Below are positions 48,261-55,988 of a stretch of DNA of 64,000 bases, piece by piece. The notes beneath the pieces were generated by a model. That model did no database searches, was not told the DNA's origin, and saw only the letters and a list, made by a program, of their open reading frames with translations. Position 1 is the first letter of the stretch. Each line of letters starts with the position of its first letter. The translations under genes were made by a program, and so were the position numbers. Source of the DNA: Microscillaceae bacterium (GTDB taxonomy: Bacteria; Bacteroidota; Bacteroidia; Cytophagales; Microscillaceae); the NCBI GenBank assembly GCA_011390205.1, contig JAABSX010000010.1:1-64000 (forward strand), written 5' to 3'.

Positions 48261-48279
48261 AAAGAGGAAACTCTTGTAC

Positions 48280-48359
48280 ACTGTCATGCCGTAGGCATCT
48301 GCTATACTGCGTAGCCCGCCCGCATTTGATACACCTTCAGATACTTTCAGTATGACAGT
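48280..48359. repeat. REP-like element, copy 1 (ACTGTCAT / ATGACAGT ends)
   Basis: An 80-bp element with perfect 8-bp inverted ends. It carries ATCTGCTATACTGCGTAGCC in its left half and TACACCTTCAGATACTTTCA in its right half. Related copies or parts are at 50632-50680, 55959-55988 and 56716-56787. It lies at the left edge of the peptide locus. Confidence 0.7.
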
Positions 48360-48373
48360 AAGCAACACAAGCA

Positions 48374-49654
48374 TTACTCTCCCAACAACTCTTCTAACTT
48401 CTTGAGGAGGGCTTCGCCTCGGAGATTCATCTCGATTATTTTTCCTTTGGGGCTGATGAGGAAGTTGGCAGGGATAGATTGGATGGAGTATTCTTCTAAA
48501 ATTTTAGATTTCCAGCCTGTAGTATCTATGAGGTGTTTCCATTCACCTATTTCATCCTCTTTGATGGCTTTTTGCCATTTGCTTTCATTGGTGTCTATGG
48601 AGACACTTAGGATTTCAAAGCCTTTATCTTTAAATTGCTGATATGCCTGAATCAGTGTAGGATTTTCTTCTCTGCAAGGTGCACACCAGCTTGCCCAGAA
48701 ATCTAAGAGTGTGTATTTCCCTTTGAAATCTTGATAATCAAGGATACTGATATATGATTCACTTGGTATTTGTATATCTTCTGTGAGAGATTCATAGAGG
48801 AAAGTAGCCTTTAACTTGCTAGAGTAAATTTTCTTCAAATCATTTATGTTGGTAGCTCCATCTTCAGTTAGTTTCACACTATCTATTAAAACTATAAAAT
48901 CTTTATAAGTAATCAATACATTGAGGTAATCTGGATTAGATTCACTTATCAAGACTTTGGTCGTGTTTAAACTTTTTCTCAATTCTTCTTTAATTTGCTG
49001 ATTTTCTTCTACAAGTTCCAGTAATCTATCTTGTGCCTCAGAGGCAGTAATACTTCCCTTGGTGATATAAGGTAACATGATAACCACAGCACTATCAGGC
49101 TGTTGAAGACCTACATAACATTTGAATATGAAACTATCTTGATAATAATCATTATAGTAATTATCCACATTCATCGATATTTGTGAGGGATATTCATTTT
49201 TACTCAGATAGGCATAAGTAAGTGCTTCTCTGTAATCATCCAGTTTCATATTTATTATTGCCAATACCTCACAAGTATTATGAAGTATCTGTAAATAAGA
49301 CACAGTTGTAAATTTTGATAACTCTTTTCTATTTACTTTTTCACTCAAAAAAGTACGCATTTTATATATTTCTTCGTGGTAAGCCTTTGCTCTCGGATAG
49401 TCTATTTTATATTTAGATTCTTCTCTATAATAATCTCTAAGAATGACCTCTGCTAAATAATATTGAGCCAGTAACTTAACTACTGAATTATCTTTATTTT
49501 GCTCTATAATCATTTCATACGTCTCTTCAGACTTTTCTTTATTCCCACTAAGGTTATATTCTTTTGCTTGAGCAAATTGTTCTGTAATATTTTCTTGAGC
49601 ATAAGAATAACACATAGGTAGAACTAAAAAAAACAGTATGATTTTTATTTTCAT
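48374..49654 (-). CDS. TlpA/ResA-like thioredoxin-domain protein
   Basis: 426 residues from the ATG at 49654, with signal peptide ending SYAQ. The N-terminal 280 residues are TPR-like helical (EYNLSGNKEKSEETYEMIIE). The C-terminal thioredoxin fold is residues 300-426, with the CxxC active site in LLDFWASWCAPCREENPTLI and cis-Pro in SIPANFLISPKG. It would reduce or shuffle disulphides in the periplasm. It is the last gene of the putative modified-peptide locus, whose two precursors contain Cys residues; such a pairing is known in other peptide clusters. Confidence 0.88.
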   Translation of the reverse strand: MKIKIILFFLVLPMCYSYAQENITEQFAQAKEYNLSGNKEKSEETYEMIIEQNKDNSVVKLLAQYYLAEVILRDYYREESKYKIDYPRAKAYHEEIYKMRTFLSEKVNRKELSKFTTVSYLQILHNTCEVLAIINMKLDDYREALTYAYLSKNEYPSQISMNVDNYYNDYYQDSFIFKCYVGLQQPDSAVVIMLPYITKGSITASEAQDRLLELVEENQQIKEELRKSLNTTKVLISESNPDYLNVLITYKDFIVLIDSVKLTEDGATNINDLKKIYSSKLKATFLYESLTEDIQIPSESYISILDYQDFKGKYTLLDFWASWCAPCREENPTLIQAYQQFKDKGFEILSVSIDTNESKWQKAIKEDEIGEWKHLIDTTGWKSKILEEYSIQSIPANFLISPKGKIIEMNLRGEALLKKLEELLGE

Positions 49655-49799
49655 ATATTTATTACTTGTCAAATTGTGATCTTTAATGAGGCATTAAAAT
49701 CCTAACAAGTACTAAACAGCACTTGCTAGAACAATTTAGGATAGAAGTAGGGCTATGAATAATGAGGTATTCAACTTTGTGAGAACTTCCCTAAACTCA

Positions 49800-50013
49800 C
49801 TATTCTATTCTATCTGCTGTAACAGCATTCTTACAAGCTAACATGAGAAGATGATAAGCCTCATGTGTTTTCATACCAGGATTTAAACCAGCAAGATAGT
49901 TTACATCTTCATCAGAGATTGTTGCTTCACATACTTTGTCCCCCCCCTCTCACCTGAGAAGTCTGCTCTTGAGTAAGAGCGAAATCTTTAAATTTTTCAA
50001 ATACGTTGTTCAT
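49800..50013 (-). pseudogene. Double-glycine leader precursor peptide, frameshifted at a G8 tract
   Basis: From the ATG at 50013 the frame reads MNNVFEKFKDFALTQEQTSQ then VRGG, a typical Bacteroidota peptide leader. It runs into eight G (49940-49947) and stops at residue 28. If one G is removed, it continues for 46 more residues (DKVCEATISDEDVNYLAG and onwards) to a stop at 49800, giving 70 residues. The 214-bp length is one more than a multiple of three. It may be a true pseudogene, a phase-variable ON/OFF switch, or a sequencing artefact. Located between the leader-HTH gene and the TlpA gene. Confidence 0.6.
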
Positions 50014-50205
50014 AATAATTTGGGTTTAAGTTATAAAATAATTTGAACTCTTCAAAGTTAATTTACTCAATCTTGAAATCCCGTTAAAGCTTGAAAAAAT
50101 ATTAGCTTGTAAAACTCTGATAATCAGGTACTTGCAAAATATTTTAGGCGAACTTTTTAACGAATTATTTAAAAGAAAAAATAAGATTATTAGTAGATTA
50201 TTTGG

Positions 50206-50595
50206 TTACTCTTTCAAGCCTTCTTTTAAAGCATACAGAAGTGCTTCTTTCTCCAATTCTTCCCACTTCTCGTAACTCAAGAAGTCTAAAATCTTCTTGC
50301 GAGTTGCATCTTGAAAATAACGGCTGTCTTTCATAAAATACCTTATCGTAGAAAGAGGGATATCCAATAAGCAAGAAAAACTACGGTAATGACGGTGTTT
50401 CCAGTCTTCTAGAGGGTCTAGTAGATTCTCAAAGCTCTCATGGCTGTAGTGAGGTTTATCTAGTTCATTTCGTGCTTTGCTAATCAATAAACGAATGACT
50501 GCATTTTTGAGCAAATCATTGCCTCCTCTGATTTGCAGAGTTTCTTCCTTACTCAGGGCGTATTGTGTAAATTGATTGAAGAGATTTGTGTTCAT
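50206..50595 (-). CDS. Chimeric protein: double-glycine leader plus HTH-like domain
   Basis: 129 residues from the ATG at 50595; the upstream ATG at 50634 is disfavoured. Residues 1-25 (MNTNLFNQFTQYALSKEETL then QIRGG) match the leader of the neighbouring precursors. The rest is not a small core peptide: it is charged, helical and has LLDIPLSTIRYFMKDSR followed by ATRKKILDFLSYEKWEEL. That pattern is like a Lambda-repressor type HTH (STI-recognition helix, then TRKKI-FLxY). It is either a regulator carrying a leader for export or processing, or a precursor with a very large follower. Same strand as its neighbours. Confidence 0.6.
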   Translation of the reverse strand: MNTNLFNQFTQYALSKEETLQIRGGNDLLKNAVIRLLISKARNELDKPHYSHESFENLLDPLEDWKHRHYRSFSCLLDIPLSTIRYFMKDSRYFQDATRKKILDFLSYEKWEELEKEALLYALKEGLKE

Positions 50596-50631
50596 ACGAG
50601 AGTTGTTAAGATATATAGTTTTAAAATTGGT

Positions 50632-50680
50632 CATTGGTCATTGAGGCTACGCTATACAGCAGATTTTTACAGAATGACAA
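50632..50680. repeat. REP-like element, copy 2 (partial, inverted)
   Basis: The reverse complement contains TGTCATTCTG and AATCTGCTGTATAGCGTAGC, matching the left half of copies at 48280 and 56716. The opposite end is degenerate (AATGACC repeated). It lies just upstream of the leader-HTH gene. Confidence 0.55.
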
Positions 50681-50872
50681 TACACGTATATTCCTGTCAT
50701 TTTGGAAAAATCCCCATTTGGTCAGAGCGTCTTGACCCACAATAGCAAACTGCTTTTAGCGTTTCGCTCATATCTTTGTTCCATAGTTCAAAAGTACAAT
50801 TTTTAGTATATTTGAACAAACTTTTATGAATCATTTAAACTCAAAATATAAAATAAAATTCTGAAATAAACC

Positions 50873-51067
50873 CTAACCAATACCCAAACTACGACTTAAT
50901 GATGCAAAAACCTTTGGTATGAGCGAGATGCCCATACCAGTTTGCGCTGGATATTCAGGGTGACTTAGTAATTCAGTTTGAAGGATTTCAGTGGTATGTT
51001 TTATTTCTAAGCTTTTCAGTATGTAAGATACTAGCTCAGTATTACTAGATAGTTGAGTAGATAGCAT
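50873..51067 (-). pseudogene. Fragment resembling the N-terminus of peptidase C39/VKOR-like proteins
   Basis: A 64-codon frame starting MLSTQLSSNTELVSYILKSL, with LLSHPEYP at residues 33-40. In Bacteroidota modified-peptide clusters that motif is typical of the C39-like head of VKOR or processing proteins (LLxHPxYPSLxSLS). After HPEYP the frame passes a short palindrome (TGGTATG / CATACCA at 50915-50939), resumes with ASLSRSLGIG and then stops. No remainder of the gene follows. I read it as a relic; it could also be a short functional protein. Confidence 0.4.
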
Positions 51068-51114
51068 AGAATGAATAGTTTTATATTGATATTGAATGAT
51101 GCAAAATGTAATTG

Positions 51115-52341
51115 TTATTTGAACTGTTGCTCAAGAGGAATCTTCTCTGATAATTGCTGATAAATCTCTTCAGGTAAAACTAACTCAGGATGCTCTGCAA
51201 AAAAAGATTGCCAAATTTCAGAATTCACTTTAAATCTATCTTCATCTATTTTACCAGTGGTTGGTAACACCTCTGTATTTTTTAGTCTTTCTTCACCAAA
51301 ATTAACTTTATACAAAAATAATTGAATAATACTGTTCTGAGAGACTCCTAAATTTTGATAAAAAATAGGTTCTTCCCATTCTATCAAATAGGGGTAATAG
51401 CTATTATCTGTTTCCTTTTTTAACTTTACTTTAATTTTATTGAGTAATTGCCCTTGATTGTATTGATTTCTTGAAAACTCCACAATGGCTTGATCTGATT
51501 GATTGATGATAATATAAGAATTATCTACCAGTGGCTTACCTTGAAACTCTATTTTATACAAAGTATCACCCTCTTGATTTGTATAAGTTTCCTCTAAATA
51601 AAAAGTTTTTCCCCAAATAAAACTATCTCCTGAGGCAAAAACTGTATAGGGGTCTGAAATAAGACGTAAGTAATTCTGTTTATAGGTTTTGTAGAAAATG
51701 TTTTCTTGTTGTGCTTTTTGTTTTTGTATGTACCTAAAAACCGTACTCAGGCTATCGATCTCTAAGAAATTTTGACTTTCTCTTAGGTGATGAAGATATA
51801 CTTTTGCAGTGCTGGGATTACTCCAGTAGCTTTCGTCTTCGATAGTCAGAGTTGCTTCTAGCAGATAAGCATATTTTTCATTTTCTCTATAGGTTTGCCT
51901 TAAAAATGCTTTATATTGATGCTTTCGTTGTGGCATTACTTGGCGAAATTTATCTACAGCATGTTTGACTAATTCTTGCAAAGCAAAATCTTGCGTAGCT
52001 AGGTCATTTATTTTAGTAAAGTCATTGTGAGTAAAAGAAGGTAGATTATTCAAATAAATAATATTGTCTTGTCCTGCAATTAACTGAGAAGGAGTGATTT
52101 TAATTTGTGGGTAATCAAAATGTAAGCAGTATATATTTTTTTGGAGATTTTCATTACTTATTACTATTTTAGTTTTCCCTTTTGAATTACTTACAAAAGA
52201 TTTAGTGCTATCATTAGTCTTGATAATTACATCTTTGATGGGTAATTTAGTTTGTCCATCTAATATTATTACTGTAAAAGTATTTTGTGCATAGAGAACT
52301 TGAAAAACTGAAAATAATAGTGTAATTAGTATTAATTTCAT
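51115..52341 (-). CDS. Secreted carboxypeptidase-regulatory-like domain protein in the peptide locus
   Basis: 408 residues with signal peptide (residues 1-18, ending VLYAQ). A beta-sandwich like the carboxypeptidase regulatory domain is about residues 20-95 (FTVIILDGQTKLPIKDVIIK). The rest resembles the protein at 18926-20188 in layout (for example KFRQVMPQRKHQYKAFLRQT versus PLSPYLMEGYYRDY), with LLEATLTIEDESYWS. No catalytic motif is seen. It lies between precursor B and the peptidase-like fragment on the same strand, so a surface role for the locus is possible. Confidence 0.75.
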   Translation of the reverse strand: MKLILITLLFSVFQVLYAQNTFTVIILDGQTKLPIKDVIIKTNDSTKSFVSNSKGKTKIVISNENLQKNIYCLHFDYPQIKITPSQLIAGQDNIIYLNNLPSFTHNDFTKINDLATQDFALQELVKHAVDKFRQVMPQRKHQYKAFLRQTYRENEKYAYLLEATLTIEDESYWSNPSTAKVYLHHLRESQNFLEIDSLSTVFRYIQKQKAQQENIFYKTYKQNYLRLISDPYTVFASGDSFIWGKTFYLEETYTNQEGDTLYKIEFQGKPLVDNSYIIINQSDQAIVEFSRNQYNQGQLLNKIKVKLKKETDNSYYPYLIEWEEPIFYQNLGVSQNSIIQLFLYKVNFGEERLKNTEVLPTTGKIDEDRFKVNSEIWQSFFAEHPELVLPEEIYQQLSEKIPLEQQFK

Positions 52342-52376
52342 AATTGTAGTTTTAGTTGAATTTTATTAAAAGTTGT

Positions 52377-52401
52377 ATAGAGTGTGCTTATGACACTCTG
52401 T
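52377..52401 (-). terminator. Hairpin after precursor B (weak terminator or attenuator)
   Basis: A 10-bp stem with one G-U (TATAGAGTGT / ACACTCTGTA) and a 7-nt loop lies 30 bp after the precursor stop, without a strong T run. Such hairpins often let the precursor be made in excess over downstream genes. Confidence 0.4.
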
Positions 52402-52431
52402 ACAAAAGATATTAATTTTTATGATGTTTTT

Positions 52432-52722
52432 TTAATAACTATACCAACTTGTATCACAATCAACCTGACTCATCTGACTTGGAGCATTATTCCATAAATC
52501 AGCACCTGAGTATCTACTACATCCATTGCTTCCCCAACCTAGATGAAAACCTGTCATTGCTCCTGAACTGAGCGTATTACAAGAGCGTATCATATACAGC
52601 GAGGAACAATACTCTCTTAAATCGTTTCCCCCTCTTACAAGCGAAGCCTGCTCGGTAGAAATTTCAAACTCTTGGAATTTGGCAAATAAATCATCATTGA
52701 TTTTTTCTAGATTCTTGTTCAT
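52432..52722 (-). CDS. Modified-peptide precursor B (double-glycine leader, Cys-containing core)
   Basis: 96 residues. Leader MNKNLEKINDDLFAKFQEFE then ISTEQASLVRGG ends at residue 32, a double-glycine type cleavage site. The core, NDLREYCSSLYMIRSCNTLS and onward to residue 96, has four Cys and many Ser, Gly, Trp and Tyr (FHLGWGSNGC, DCDTSWYSY). Leader and upstream DNA are nearly identical to precursor A at 55501-55761, but the cores are unrelated. It probably is the substrate of the ATP-grasp maturase or of another enzyme outside the window. Confidence 0.72.
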   Translation of the reverse strand: MNKNLEKINDDLFAKFQEFEISTEQASLVRGGNDLREYCSSLYMIRSCNTLSSGAMTGFHLGWGSNGCSRYSGADLWNNAPSQMSQVDCDTSWYSY

Positions 52723-52860
52723 AGTTTTAAGAATTAAATTTGTAAATAAATTAAAAGTAGTAAATCAACGAAATGCCTGTGCAGGTAGAAGGATATTTCC
52801 CATTTAGCTCATCTACTTGTTAAAAATTTACTAAAAAAAAATAGAATCCAAAGCTTTTTT
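52658..52860 (-). repeat. Promoter-plus-leader cassette, copy B
   Basis: About 200 bp nearly identical to 55696-55896, covering the first 20 leader codons and the upstream region. The match breaks down within the leader-core boundary. The -7-like box here is TAAATTTT on the minus strand, one base off the TAnnTTTG consensus; copy A has TAAATTTG. The 10-bp palindrome is CCTGTGCAGG here and CCTGCGCAGG in copy A. Confidence 0.75.
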
Positions 52861-52926
52861 GATTTTTTTTGAAAAAAAAGTTAATTTTAGATTTTTAAAA
52901 ATAACAATATATTTACATGAAATGAT

Positions 52927-53034
52927 ATGAAAACAAGCTCCTCTATCTCACCCGAAGAATTACACCTTATCCGAAGCGAAGAAGTACAAGAGATTTTGAG
53001 CCTTTTACGGGAATACAAGGAGCATATAGTCTAA
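52927..53034 (+). CDS. Possible 35-residue ORF
   Basis: Reads MKTSSSISPEELHLIRSEEV followed by QEILSLLREYKEHIV and TAA. It is the only plus-strand frame in the locus and is not on the sense strand of its neighbours. Helical and charged in makeup with no family recognised. It may be chance; the composition is nonetheless typical of real protein. Confidence 0.25.
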   Translation: MKTSSSISPEELHLIRSEEVQEILSLLREYKEHIV

Positions 53035-53048
53035 AATAATCTGCAGTT

Positions 53049-53258
53049 TTATACATCTTTATTAAGTTTTTTCCAGTCTATCGTTTTGCTGAGGGGTTTG
53101 TAGTGTGTTTCTGGAATAACTTTGTCGGTTTGGTAAAACTCAACCTTGATAAATTTATCATTAGTGTGTGGTACTTCACTGATTAGAGTTTTATGTAGAA
53201 AATAAAAAGGCAAAGGTAACCCTTCTATATCTTCAATATTTTCTTTTTCCTGATTCAT
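53049..53258 (-). CDS. Small protein coupled to the ATP-grasp maturase
   Basis: 69 residues: MNQEKENIEDIEGLPLPFYF, then LHKTLISEVPHTNDKFIKVE and a C-terminus KTIDWKKLNKDV. No Cys, no double Gly, no signal. Its start overlaps the 3' end of the ATP-grasp gene by 26 bp, so translation is coupled. In grasp-with-spasm type clusters a small protein of this size is sometimes the modified peptide. Here a partner or recognition protein is as likely. It is the nearest downstream gene of the maturase. Confidence 0.6.
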   Translation of the reverse strand: MNQEKENIEDIEGLPLPFYFLHKTLISEVPHTNDKFIKVEFYQTDKVIPETHYKPLSKTIDWKKLNKDV

Positions 53259-54195
53259 CGCTCAAAAATGTTGCTATTTTCTTCTCTAAATAATAATTAC
53301 AAGGGTAAGATACCATGCCAAACTGCCCGACAGGATTGACCTCAAGAAATACATAACGATTATCTTTAGTAACCACCATATCAATAGAGCCTGTATTAAG
53401 CCCTAATTTTTGCATCAGTTTCTTGAGTTTCTTCTCAATCTCTTTGGGTAAAATATAAGGAACTGCTCTATTAGGTTTGGTATCATTATAATGTCTGAAA
53501 TCTACATTGGTTTGAGGATCATTCTGTGAGAAAATTGCCATAGGGAAATACTTACTGTACATAAAGAAAATGCGTAATTCATATTTTTTGTTTAACTTCT
53601 CTTGAATCAGAGAAGGAAAAAAGGATGCGATTTTCTCAATTCTTTCTTGGGATATTTCGCTAGTGTAAGCACTATACAAGTAATCATCTTTCACAAAAGA
53701 AGACAAGAATTTGATAGATTTTGTAATAGCTTCATTGTTTTTCAAAAAATCTATAATAACTTGTTTTTGAGCTGTAACTGTGGTCTTAGGTATATCTATT
53801 TCACATTCTTTAGCTTCGAGAAGTACCCAAAGTTTATTTAGGGTTTCATTATTGTAATTTCCTAAATACCTAACATTATCTTCCAAAAAAGTAAAGAGGA
53901 AAGATTTGAGTTCAGTATCTAGTGTAGACAAATGTCTATCCGCTTTTGCTATGCTATATTGTCTTTTTTCAAAGGAAATGTCTGTTTTATAAGACCAAAA
54001 AGAACTAACTGAATTTACATTAATTGCTTGTTTATCAATACTTAATACACATTGTGTAGTTTGAGTATTCAAATCCAAGTGAATGTCTAGTACACTGTTT
54101 TCGGTTACTCGCAGAAAGTTAATATCTTTACTCAAAAGGTATGCAATCACTACATTACTATCAAGATGATATTTACTATTGAATAATAAAATCAT
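53233..54195 (-). CDS. ATP-grasp peptide maturase (grasp-with-spasm / graspetide type)
   Basis: 320 residues. The N-terminal part (LSKDINFLRVTENSVLDIHL) is followed by an R/K-containing SFWSYKTDISFEKRQ near residue 65, then the central ATP-grasp fold. The C-terminal signature is GLNTGSIDMVVTKDNRYVFL followed by EVNPVGQFGMVSYPCNYYLE: the metal-binding E-V-N-P, and the F-G-M-V-S-Y-P-C-N-Y ending known from GRASP-with-SPASM maturases. Such enzymes form ester or amide links between side chains in a precursor. The start is 2 bp after the secreted-protein stop. Confidence 0.85.
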   Translation of the reverse strand: MILLFNSKYHLDSNVVIAYLLSKDINFLRVTENSVLDIHLDLNTQTTQCVLSIDKQAINVNSVSSFWSYKTDISFEKRQYSIAKADRHLSTLDTELKSFLFTFLEDNVRYLGNYNNETLNKLWVLLEAKECEIDIPKTTVTAQKQVIIDFLKNNEAITKSIKFLSSFVKDDYLYSAYTSEISQERIEKIASFFPSLIQEKLNKKYELRIFFMYSKYFPMAIFSQNDPQTNVDFRHYNDTKPNRAVPYILPKEIEKKLKKLMQKLGLNTGSIDMVVTKDNRYVFLEVNPVGQFGMVSYPCNYYLEKKIATFLSDESGKRKY

Positions 54196-54197
54196 TT

Positions 54198-55193
54198 CTA
54201 ATCTATGTCTATTTCTACAGAGTTCTTAAAATCTTTCTCAATTAGTTTTTGTGGTAATCCTAACAGGATGGATTTAGAATTAAAATAGGCAAATGCAAAA
54301 GGCTGTTTTTTGAGTGAGAAAATAACTTTCCTGCTATACTCTTCCCACGTTTCCATTCCTATTTTTGCACGATTTTCATTTCTTCTTCTAAGTTCTTCTT
54401 CTGGCAATATCCTCATCCTCCACTTTTCTCCTCTACTGTGTTTGATTAAGACTTCAGAGCCATAGTCCGTACTGATTTCTGACATATCTTCTAGCCCTAC
54501 ATAAGCATAGATATGAAAATCTAAATTTTCATAAGCCTCTTTGAGTATAGGTAATATTTCTAGGTATCCTAGTTGAATAGAGTGAATAGCAATTAAAGAG
54601 AAATCTCTAGAAGGATAAAGTGTATGAGGACGGTCTATTCCCACCTTTTCAGAAGTAGGAAAGCCCTTTTTGTTTATCAATTTTATAAGATAGTGAGCAT
54701 TTACGGAATCAATCTTTCTTACAGTATCTCCATATATCTCATTGTAATTCCACGATACTCTGAATAGTTGATCTACCTTGGCTAGACTATCCAATGTATG
54801 TATATATACACTATCTTTGATAGGTCTCTGATAATTGGCCTTTATTTTTTTCCACATTTTACTTTGACAGAATTTGAGAAAAACATCTTGTTGAGATATG
54901 TAGCTTGTATCAATTCCTTTTTTTAGCAAAACGTTGATATATTCCTTAGTCTTGCTCTTGTCTTTAACATACAAAGCACAAATGGAAGCATTGTAATAAT
55001 CCTTGGCAAAACCTTTATTGGCTACTGCAAAAGCACTTTCATAGTTTGATAGCGCTTTGCTATAAGCTGAGTCTATGATAGCTAGCTCTGCCTGATTGGT
55101 AAAATGATAATATTTTTTGGCTAATTCTTGGGCTTTTATCCTGAAAGAGGTAAAACACATAATGACACTTAGCAATATGAGTATTTTTTTCAT
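54198..55193 (-). CDS. Secreted protein of the peptide locus, function unknown
   Basis: 331 residues with a signal peptide (residues 1-22, ending IKAQ). TPR-like helices follow (IDSAYSKALSNYESAFAVAN, residues about 38-80). The middle has VYIHTLDSLAKVDQLFRVSW, and an E/R-rich stretch near 265 (PEEELRRRNENRAKIGMETW). No catalytic motif is recognised. It ends 2 bp before the ATP-grasp start, so the pair is surely co-transcribed. A secretion or recognition partner of the maturase product is the best guess. Confidence 0.6.
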   Translation of the reverse strand: MKKILILLSVIMCFTSFRIKAQELAKKYYHFTNQAELAIIDSAYSKALSNYESAFAVANKGFAKDYYNASICALYVKDKSKTKEYINVLLKKGIDTSYISQQDVFLKFCQSKMWKKIKANYQRPIKDSVYIHTLDSLAKVDQLFRVSWNYNEIYGDTVRKIDSVNAHYLIKLINKKGFPTSEKVGIDRPHTLYPSRDFSLIAIHSIQLGYLEILPILKEAYENLDFHIYAYVGLEDMSEISTDYGSEVLIKHSRGEKWRMRILPEEELRRRNENRAKIGMETWEEYSRKVIFSLKKQPFAFAYFNSKSILLGLPQKLIEKDFKNSVEIDID

Positions 55194-55427
55194 AGTAGAT
55201 ACTTTTTGAATAATTGATAGCTAAATAACTTGGTAAAATAAAAGCTATTCTATTTTTTATAAAACAAACTATAAAAGTAAAACTTGTAAGGGGAGAGGTA
55301 GGAGCAAACAAGAAATAACCCACCACAAACAAATTTACTTTTTACTAAAAGGAACAAGGTCACTCAGAGCAACCCTATACCTAGTAAAAATCGGGTAAAT
55401 TATTAATTGAACCTACATTCTACATAT

Positions 55428-55473
55428 GAAAGTACTCGATAGTCAAATATTATTTTTGTTTTTGAGTACTTTC
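55428..55473. other. Inverted repeat between precursor A and the secreted-protein gene
   Basis: 10-bp arms GAAAGTACTC / GAGTACTTTC with a 26-nt loop lie 28 bp after the precursor A stop. There is no T run, so it may be an mRNA-stabilising or attenuating structure. The 307-bp stretch 55194-55500 holds nothing else that I can support. Confidence 0.4.
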
Positions 55474-55500
55474 AAAGTTACAAGATTTGTTTAGAGTTAG

Positions 55501-55761
55501 TTAATTACCTAAAATAGTAGTCTCTGTACCCATATCTGCAGCAGCATCATCGCTACATCCTTCCCAACACCACATCATAATTTGATTTGTCGTATCATCT
55601 CTTTCATCAAGTTTAGCTGGACCATTTTGTGGTTTTTCTGGGTGGATTGCTCCAGTTGTACGGCTAACACCAATAACTTTTGCCATTTGAATTTTAGAGA
55701 TTTCAAACCCCTCAAACTTAGCAAATAAATCATCATTGATTTTTTCTAGATTCTTGTTCAT
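55501..55761 (-). CDS. Modified-peptide precursor A
   Basis: 86 residues. Leader MNKNLEKINDDLFAKFEGFE is almost that of precursor B but continues ISKIQMAKVIGVSR, where the expected double Gly is I-G. The core is acidic and Thr-rich (KLDERDDTTNQ, CSDDAAADMGTETT) with two Cys in MMWCWEGC. Thr/Ser and Asp/Glu pairs are the side chains joined by graspetide ATP-grasp enzymes, and this is the first gene of the run that contains that maturase, so it is the best substrate candidate. Confidence 0.7.
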   Translation of the reverse strand: MNKNLEKINDDLFAKFEGFEISKIQMAKVIGVSRTTGAIHPEKPQNGPAKLDERDDTTNQIMMWCWEGCSDDAAADMGTETTILGN

Positions 55762-55896
55762 TGTTTTAAGAATTAAATTTGTAAATAAATTAAAAGTAGT
55801 AAATCAACGAAATGCCTGCGCAGGTAGAAGGATATTCCCATTTAGCTCATCTACTTGTTACAAATTTACTAAAAAAATAGAATCCAAAGCTTTTTT
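55696..55896 (-). repeat. Promoter-plus-leader cassette, copy A
   Basis: Nearly identical to 52658-52860. On the minus strand it holds a perfect TAnnTTTG box (TAAATTTG, 55861-55868), the palindrome CCTGCGCAGG, and the start of the leader frame at 55761. Identity runs through about 20 leader codons and then stops. Confidence 0.75.
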
Positions 55897-55958
55897 CATA
55901 GCCCTGACAAGGTTCGAAATTTTGTCAGAGTTCAAAAATAATAACCAATGCCTAATAC

Positions 55959-55988
55959 TACACCTTCAGATACTTTCAGTATGACAGT
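55959..55988. repeat. REP-like element, right-half fragment
   Basis: Thirty bases (TACACCTTCAGATACTTTCA plus GTATGACAGT) are identical to the right half of the copy at 48330-48359. It lies just outside the leader cassette, at the right edge of the peptide locus. Confidence 0.65.

Follow-up and report, generated by a model that had tools for sequence, protein, structure and literature searches.

A probable degenerating grasp-with-spasm graspetide island in a Microscillaceae bacterium

Graspetide pathways use ATP-dependent carboxylate activation to close rings on leader-bearing precursor peptides through ester or amide bonds of their side chains. A run of genes in a 64,000-nucleotide stretch of a Microscillaceae draft genome (all of that stretch is referred to here as the window) includes a putative ATP-grasp maturase of this kind with no SPASM-domain gene at its side, and a preliminary description of the DNA proposed a new type of graspetide locus that does without a SPASM partner. 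Is this locus a SPASM-independent system, or a known system that has lost one of its parts? We favor the second answer, and put at about 0.82 the probability that the locus is a horizontally acquired, degenerating grasp-with-spasm graspetide island, which would make it a cluster of a known kind and not a new system. The direct observations behind this reading are truncated gene stubs, operon order, a boundary repeat and base composition.

All of the open reading frames named in the preliminary description were recovered on the minus strand between 48374 and 55896. The genes and gene fragments are as follows.

48374-49672, minus strand: secreted TlpA/ResA-like thioredoxin protein, 432 aa
49800-50013, minus strand: third precursor, with a frame break at eight consecutive G
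50206-50634, minus strand: leader of the precursor type (LQIRGGND) joined to a regulator-like domain, the latter free-standing in relatives
50873-51067, minus strand: candidate N-terminal fragment of a VKOR-C39 exporter-associated protein
51115-52341, minus strand: secreted 408-aa protein, following precursor B
52432-52722, minus strand: precursor peptide B, 96 aa, with an RGG leader and a Cys-containing core
53049-53258, minus strand: 69-aa LPL-type helper protein (GLPLPFYF motif)
53233-54195, minus strand: grasp-with-spasm ATP-grasp ligase (the maturase), 320 aa, with Tyr69 in place of an otherwise invariant Arg
54198-55193, minus strand: secreted 331-aa protein, found just upstream of the maturase in relatives also
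55501-55761, minus strand: precursor-like peptide A, 86 aa, with a leader in common with B and no GG at the expected site

The labels first given to the outlying genes fared unequally. The TlpA-like thioredoxin was confirmed (Thioredoxin_8, 2.6e-24; ResA model, 2.9e-22), and the 408-aa protein, which had been called carboxypeptidase-regulatory-like, gave no meaningful Pfam or NCBIfam match. The open reading frame described as a peptidase-like fragment is present, but its identity is weak. A clean N-terminal VKOR HMM matches it at 12.3 bits, and shuffled controls reached 12.4; because the score is no better than that of the best control, its designation as a VKOR-C39 stub is only tentative. A full-length VKOR HMM, which iteration had pulled toward C39-ABC proteins, did not match this fragment, and a comparison with PHROGs gave no useful match.

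The identity of the maturase is the first point on which the question turns. It scores 298.9 bits against the grasp-with-spasm ATP-grasp model TIGR04192 (E = 4.5e-89; curated cut-off 230 bits). The next-best family, MvdC, scores 134.4 bits against a cut-off of 425, and every other graspetide-ligase model in NCBIfam, MvdD included, likewise falls far below its own cut-off. On these profile scores the maturase is a true member of TIGR04192, as had been proposed from its motifs, and no better match to another ATP-grasp family was seen. A profile built from 24 relatives retrieves the solved ligases AMdnB (5e-49), MdnC (1e-48) and CdnC (1e-42). The AlphaFold model of the maturase (pLDDT 89.6) superimposes on MdnC with Z = 27.2 and an rmsd of 3.2 over 295 aligned residues, and the Z-scores against MdnC, AMdnB and CdnC span 26.5-27.2. 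With the wider set of the microviridin ligases MdnB, MdnC and AMdnB and the Chryseobacterium ligase CdnC (5ig8, 5ig9, 7m4s, 7mgv), it has in common the fold (Z 25.4-27.2) and the catalytic core residues, but it is only 19-24% identical to them and has replaced the Arg of their WxR motif.

That replacement stands out against an otherwise preserved active site. The ATP-grasp core columns are all kept, among them K121, K159, Q198, K203, E206, R208, D272, E285 and N287. Position 69 is Tyr in the maturase and Arg in 80 of 80 homologues, and the equivalent WxR Arg is present in MdnB, MdnC, CdnC and AMdnB. Measured by deviation from conserved columns, the maturase ranks third-highest of 81 proteins; since two others deviate more, its sequence is divergent overall, not wrecked.

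Membership in this family brings with it an expected gene neighborhood. A contig scan gave 80 named ATP-grasp loci, nearly all of them from Bacteroidota, to which five relatives from the same taxonomic family were added. In these five genomes (G003, G004, G012, G013 and G014) TIGR04192 scores above its cut-off, and in all five a TIGR04193 SPASM gene adjoins the TIGR04192 gene. The order in G013 and G014 is precursor(s), secreted protein, ATP-grasp, small protein, SPASM, C39-ABC exporter and HlyD; in G004 a C39-VKOR protein (PF03412 plus PF07884) follows SPASM. The minus strand of the window carries precursor A, the secreted 331-aa protein, the ATP-grasp and the 69-aa protein, which is the left part of the relatives' operon. 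The 331-aa protein and the 69-aa protein match their counterparts in G013 by tblastn at 2e-21 and 1e-6, respectively, and the latter has its GLPL motif and YKPLSK end in common with the counterparts in G013 and G004. Makarova et al. (2022; PMC8939145) described an "LPL family" encoded directly upstream of SPASM, and the 69-aa protein fits that helper, an assignment made here by motif and position rather than from their alignment. Judged by homology and position, the 331-aa protein, the maturase and the 69-aa protein stand in the standard operon order of the grasp-with-spasm family. Conservation of the gene run in relatives, which the preliminary description had left as a check, thus extends to most of the core (secreted protein, maturase and LPL-like protein). 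Its impression of an unusual set of secreted helpers holds only in part, as the set is partly typical of the family; relatives of the 331-aa protein were detected in 25 of 63 long loci.

The window therefore resembles published grasp-with-spasm clusters (TIGR04192/TIGR04193; "Branch 5" of Makarova et al. 2022, PMC8939145) in having an ATP-grasp above the cut-off, precursors upstream, the secreted protein, ATP-grasp and LPL in the same order, and several unrelated precursors per locus. It differs in that SPASM is a stub of about 22 codons, the exporter is a stub, and one invariant Arg of the ligase is replaced. The group 14 graspetides of Carter et al. are probably the counterpart of these clusters, judged by SPASM co-occurrence only; group 14 graspetides are reported always to co-occur with a SPASM-domain protein (PMC13097080), unlike the window, which has no SPASM-domain gene.

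How exceptional such an absence is can be gauged from the survey. For ATP-grasp open reading frames followed by at least 1.2 kb of downstream sequence (n = 86), a SPASM gene lies within 1.5 kb in 85. The only exception is a locus (L096) in which the ATP-grasp frame is itself disrupted. Exporters are less constant: one was detected near 36 of 63 long loci, and the other 27 have none within reach. The lack of a neighboring exporter, which had been counted among the unusual features of the window, is not unusual by this measure; because a nearby exporter is often absent across the family, the anomaly is the loss of SPASM and not that of the exporter. In the 84 SPASM partners checked (L024, L030-L113), residues 60-220 contain no CX3CX2C radical-SAM motif, which makes these proteins resemble partner proteins more than radical-SAM catalysts. 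The SPASM partners of grasp-with-spasm ligases may thus act without radical chemistry. The 85 of 86 linkage and the missing motif together support a view of SPASM as an obligatory partner protein and not an optional tailoring enzyme.

In the exceptional locus, at 7596-8787 of L096 (Chitinophaga eiseniae Ak56), the grasp-with-spasm ATP-grasp is disrupted, and it is accompanied by an LPL gene but by no SPASM. It is a second, independent decaying locus.

Just downstream of the 69-aa gene, two short remnants face each other.

52927-53001, plus strand: start of an HlyD-type exporter subunit gene (IRSEEVQEILS), preserved as a 5' stub that points toward the SPASM stub
52985-53056, minus strand: 5' stub of the SPASM partner gene, with an 8-bp overlap between its ATG and the LPL stop

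The SPASM stub follows the 69-aa gene directly and in the right frame. The stub, of roughly 22 codons, reads MYKTADYFRLYAPCIPVKGSKS, which corresponds to the conserved start of SPASM partners (YFxLFAxCxxVKGxxRS), and the frame ends within a few codons after this start. The same 8-bp overlap between LPL and SPASM is found in G013 and G004. The stub was detected by tblastn (E between 0.002 and 0.02 for the 64-kb window) and by HMM, at 13.2 bits against a best score of 6.4 among 14,325 shuffled segments. The HlyD stub, of about 25 codons, encodes MKTSSSISPEELHLIRSEEVQEILS, where relatives read LRSEEVQEILT, and scores 21.5 bits with an N-terminal HMM (E = 3.9e-6; best shuffled control, 7.3). The two stubs are joined tail-to-tail on opposite strands within 52927-53056, and exporter genes convergent to SPASM occur downstream in two of the surveyed loci (L053 and L067). 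A single internal deletion between convergent SPASM and HlyD genes, with end points that we infer from the short stubs, would account for both.

These remnants bear directly on the proposal of a graspetide type that never had a SPASM partner. The genome does lack a SPASM gene, as that proposal would have it, but a truncated SPASM start at the conserved position, facing an HlyD stub, contradicts it, and the maturase belongs to a SPASM-linked family; we consider the proposal extremely improbable. In the whole assembly (4.5 Mb, 96.9% complete) we found no intact TIGR04193 SPASM gene, no C39 peptidase gene, and no intact VKOR-C39 gene. No intact RiPP-type HlyD gene was found there either, though this search is weaker than those for TIGR04193 and C39 because it had no positive control. 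The earlier statement that the SPASM partner and exporter are missing is accurate for intact genes, and overlooks the 5' stubs of both. An artifact could be imagined in which the SPASM and exporter genes exist and a false join was made in the contig near 53.0 kb. The genome is a draft of 124 contigs, and an assembler might be misled by the cassette that is present twice, at 52.66-52.86 and 55.70-55.90 kb. However, the junction lies outside the duplicated cassette, and searches of the other contigs recovered no SPASM, HlyD, C39 or VKOR-C39 gene; in our estimate, mis-assembly is very unlikely. An apparently SPASM-less graspetide locus that a deletion explains is a warning that the absence of a gene is not enough to define a SPASM-independent type.

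The gene run is bounded by a direct repeat associated with a REP-like element.

48266-48362, unstranded: REP-like element in complete form, one half of which is the 30-bp repeat; its diverged relatives across the genome number about 30
48330-48359, unstranded: 30-bp direct repeat, left copy, island boundary
55959-55988, unstranded: 30-bp direct repeat, right copy, island boundary, a perfect match to the left copy

The left copy is part of the complete element, which has the terminal inverted repeat ACTGTCAT/ATGACAGT, and the right copy consists of the 30-bp half only. We rejected the idea that the repeat is just another of many ordinary REP copies, since a search allowing up to 2 mismatches finds it only twice in the genome. 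Folded as DNA, the element has a z-score of only -0.87, and for this reason we do not claim a stem from energy. The 7.6-kb segment between the repeats has a GC content of 31.8%, compared with 40.0% in the rest of the window; the lowest value among other 7.6-kb windows to the left is 0.387. The island lies between an MFS gene and a Uma2-like gene, and no integrase or transposase was noticed among the open reading frames of 48-56 kb. The simplest reading would be that the segment was inserted into the REP-like element with a 30-bp duplication. Neither the boundary repeat nor the SPASM and HlyD stubs had appeared in the preliminary description.

The order of events and the loss of function are inferred from these data. 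In the ancestral state, as relatives suggest, leader-GG precursors would have been bound by the ATP-grasp ligase, the LPL helper and the SPASM-domain partner, ester or amide rings would have been formed on precursor side chains, and cleavage and export of the product would have fallen to a C39/VKOR and HlyD-type exporter. The AT-rich island (48.33-55.99 kb) would have been inserted at a REP-like intergenic element, leaving the 30-bp direct duplication at its ends. A deletion would have taken most of SPASM and of the convergently oriented HlyD gene, producing the two facing 5' stubs. In the locus as it now stands the maturase, LPL and secreted proteins are open frames, but the maturase lacks its otherwise invariant Arg, the frame of one precursor is broken, and a regulator-like domain is attached to one of the leaders. 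Because SPASM is gone, the invariant Arg is lost, a precursor is broken and a leader is fused, the pathway is most likely non-functional or reduced.

Not all of the data point to decay. The maturase, LPL and secreted open reading frames remain open over long AT-rich stretches, suggesting recent or ongoing selection, and the retention of every ATP-grasp catalytic column is also on that side. The ATP-grasp and LPL might then form a functional reduced system that modifies precursor A, B or both without SPASM, with a product that is released through a general route or has an intracellular role. Open leaders are consistent with such a system, as are the many family loci without a nearby exporter and the precedent of ligases for which a partner protein is the sole requirement; experiments have shown that other graspetide ligases depend on partner proteins (PMC13097080). 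Against it stand the near-universal SPASM linkage of homologous loci (85 of 86), the loss of Arg69, the absence of GG from precursor A, the broken third precursor and the lack of a C39 peptidase anywhere in the assembly, and we regard it as unlikely. On the degenerating-island reading, the locus is a natural truncation in which the partner role of SPASM can be tested.

The precursors share their leaders through a duplicated cassette, which confirms that A and B are a leader-sharing pair.

52656-52863, minus strand: duplicated upstream-plus-leader cassette, copy 2
55695-55899, minus strand: duplicated upstream-plus-leader cassette, copy 1

The cassettes of A and B, of about 205 bp, are 93-98% identical, and no further copies were found elsewhere in the genome. 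RGG is present in B, in the broken third precursor and in the chimera, and A has no GG. The third precursor is indeed broken, as first described, and the run of eight G that interrupts it falls directly at the RGG cleavage site; the break could reflect a sequencing error, decay or a tract that is prone to slippage. The supposed leader-HTH chimera is likewise real, in that a leader is joined to a regulator-like domain, and this domain is free-standing, without a leader, in G003 and G012 (38% identity; L118 1471-1815 and L119 1471-1815). The arrangement suggests, on sequence comparison, leader capture by recombination. A more speculative scenario, quite unlikely in our judgment, is that the truncated cluster still works, with a SPASM-independent ligase, adapted for example through Tyr69, modifying A, B or both with LPL alone; in addition, the island might act as a mobile unit whose leader cassette is joined by recombination to new coding sequences, the leader-regulator fusion being an example. 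If true, a still-working truncated cluster would show what the SPASM partner contributes.

An NCBIfam scan of the window precursors gave no match even at E = 10, TIGR04149 included; the G014 precursor matches TIGR04149, and those of G013 fall just below its cut-off. In G013 (L031, 10873-11247 and 11985-12236) two precursors with near-identical leaders and unrelated cores lie on either side of a secreted 214-aa protein, repeating the leader-cassette pattern of precursors A and B in the window.
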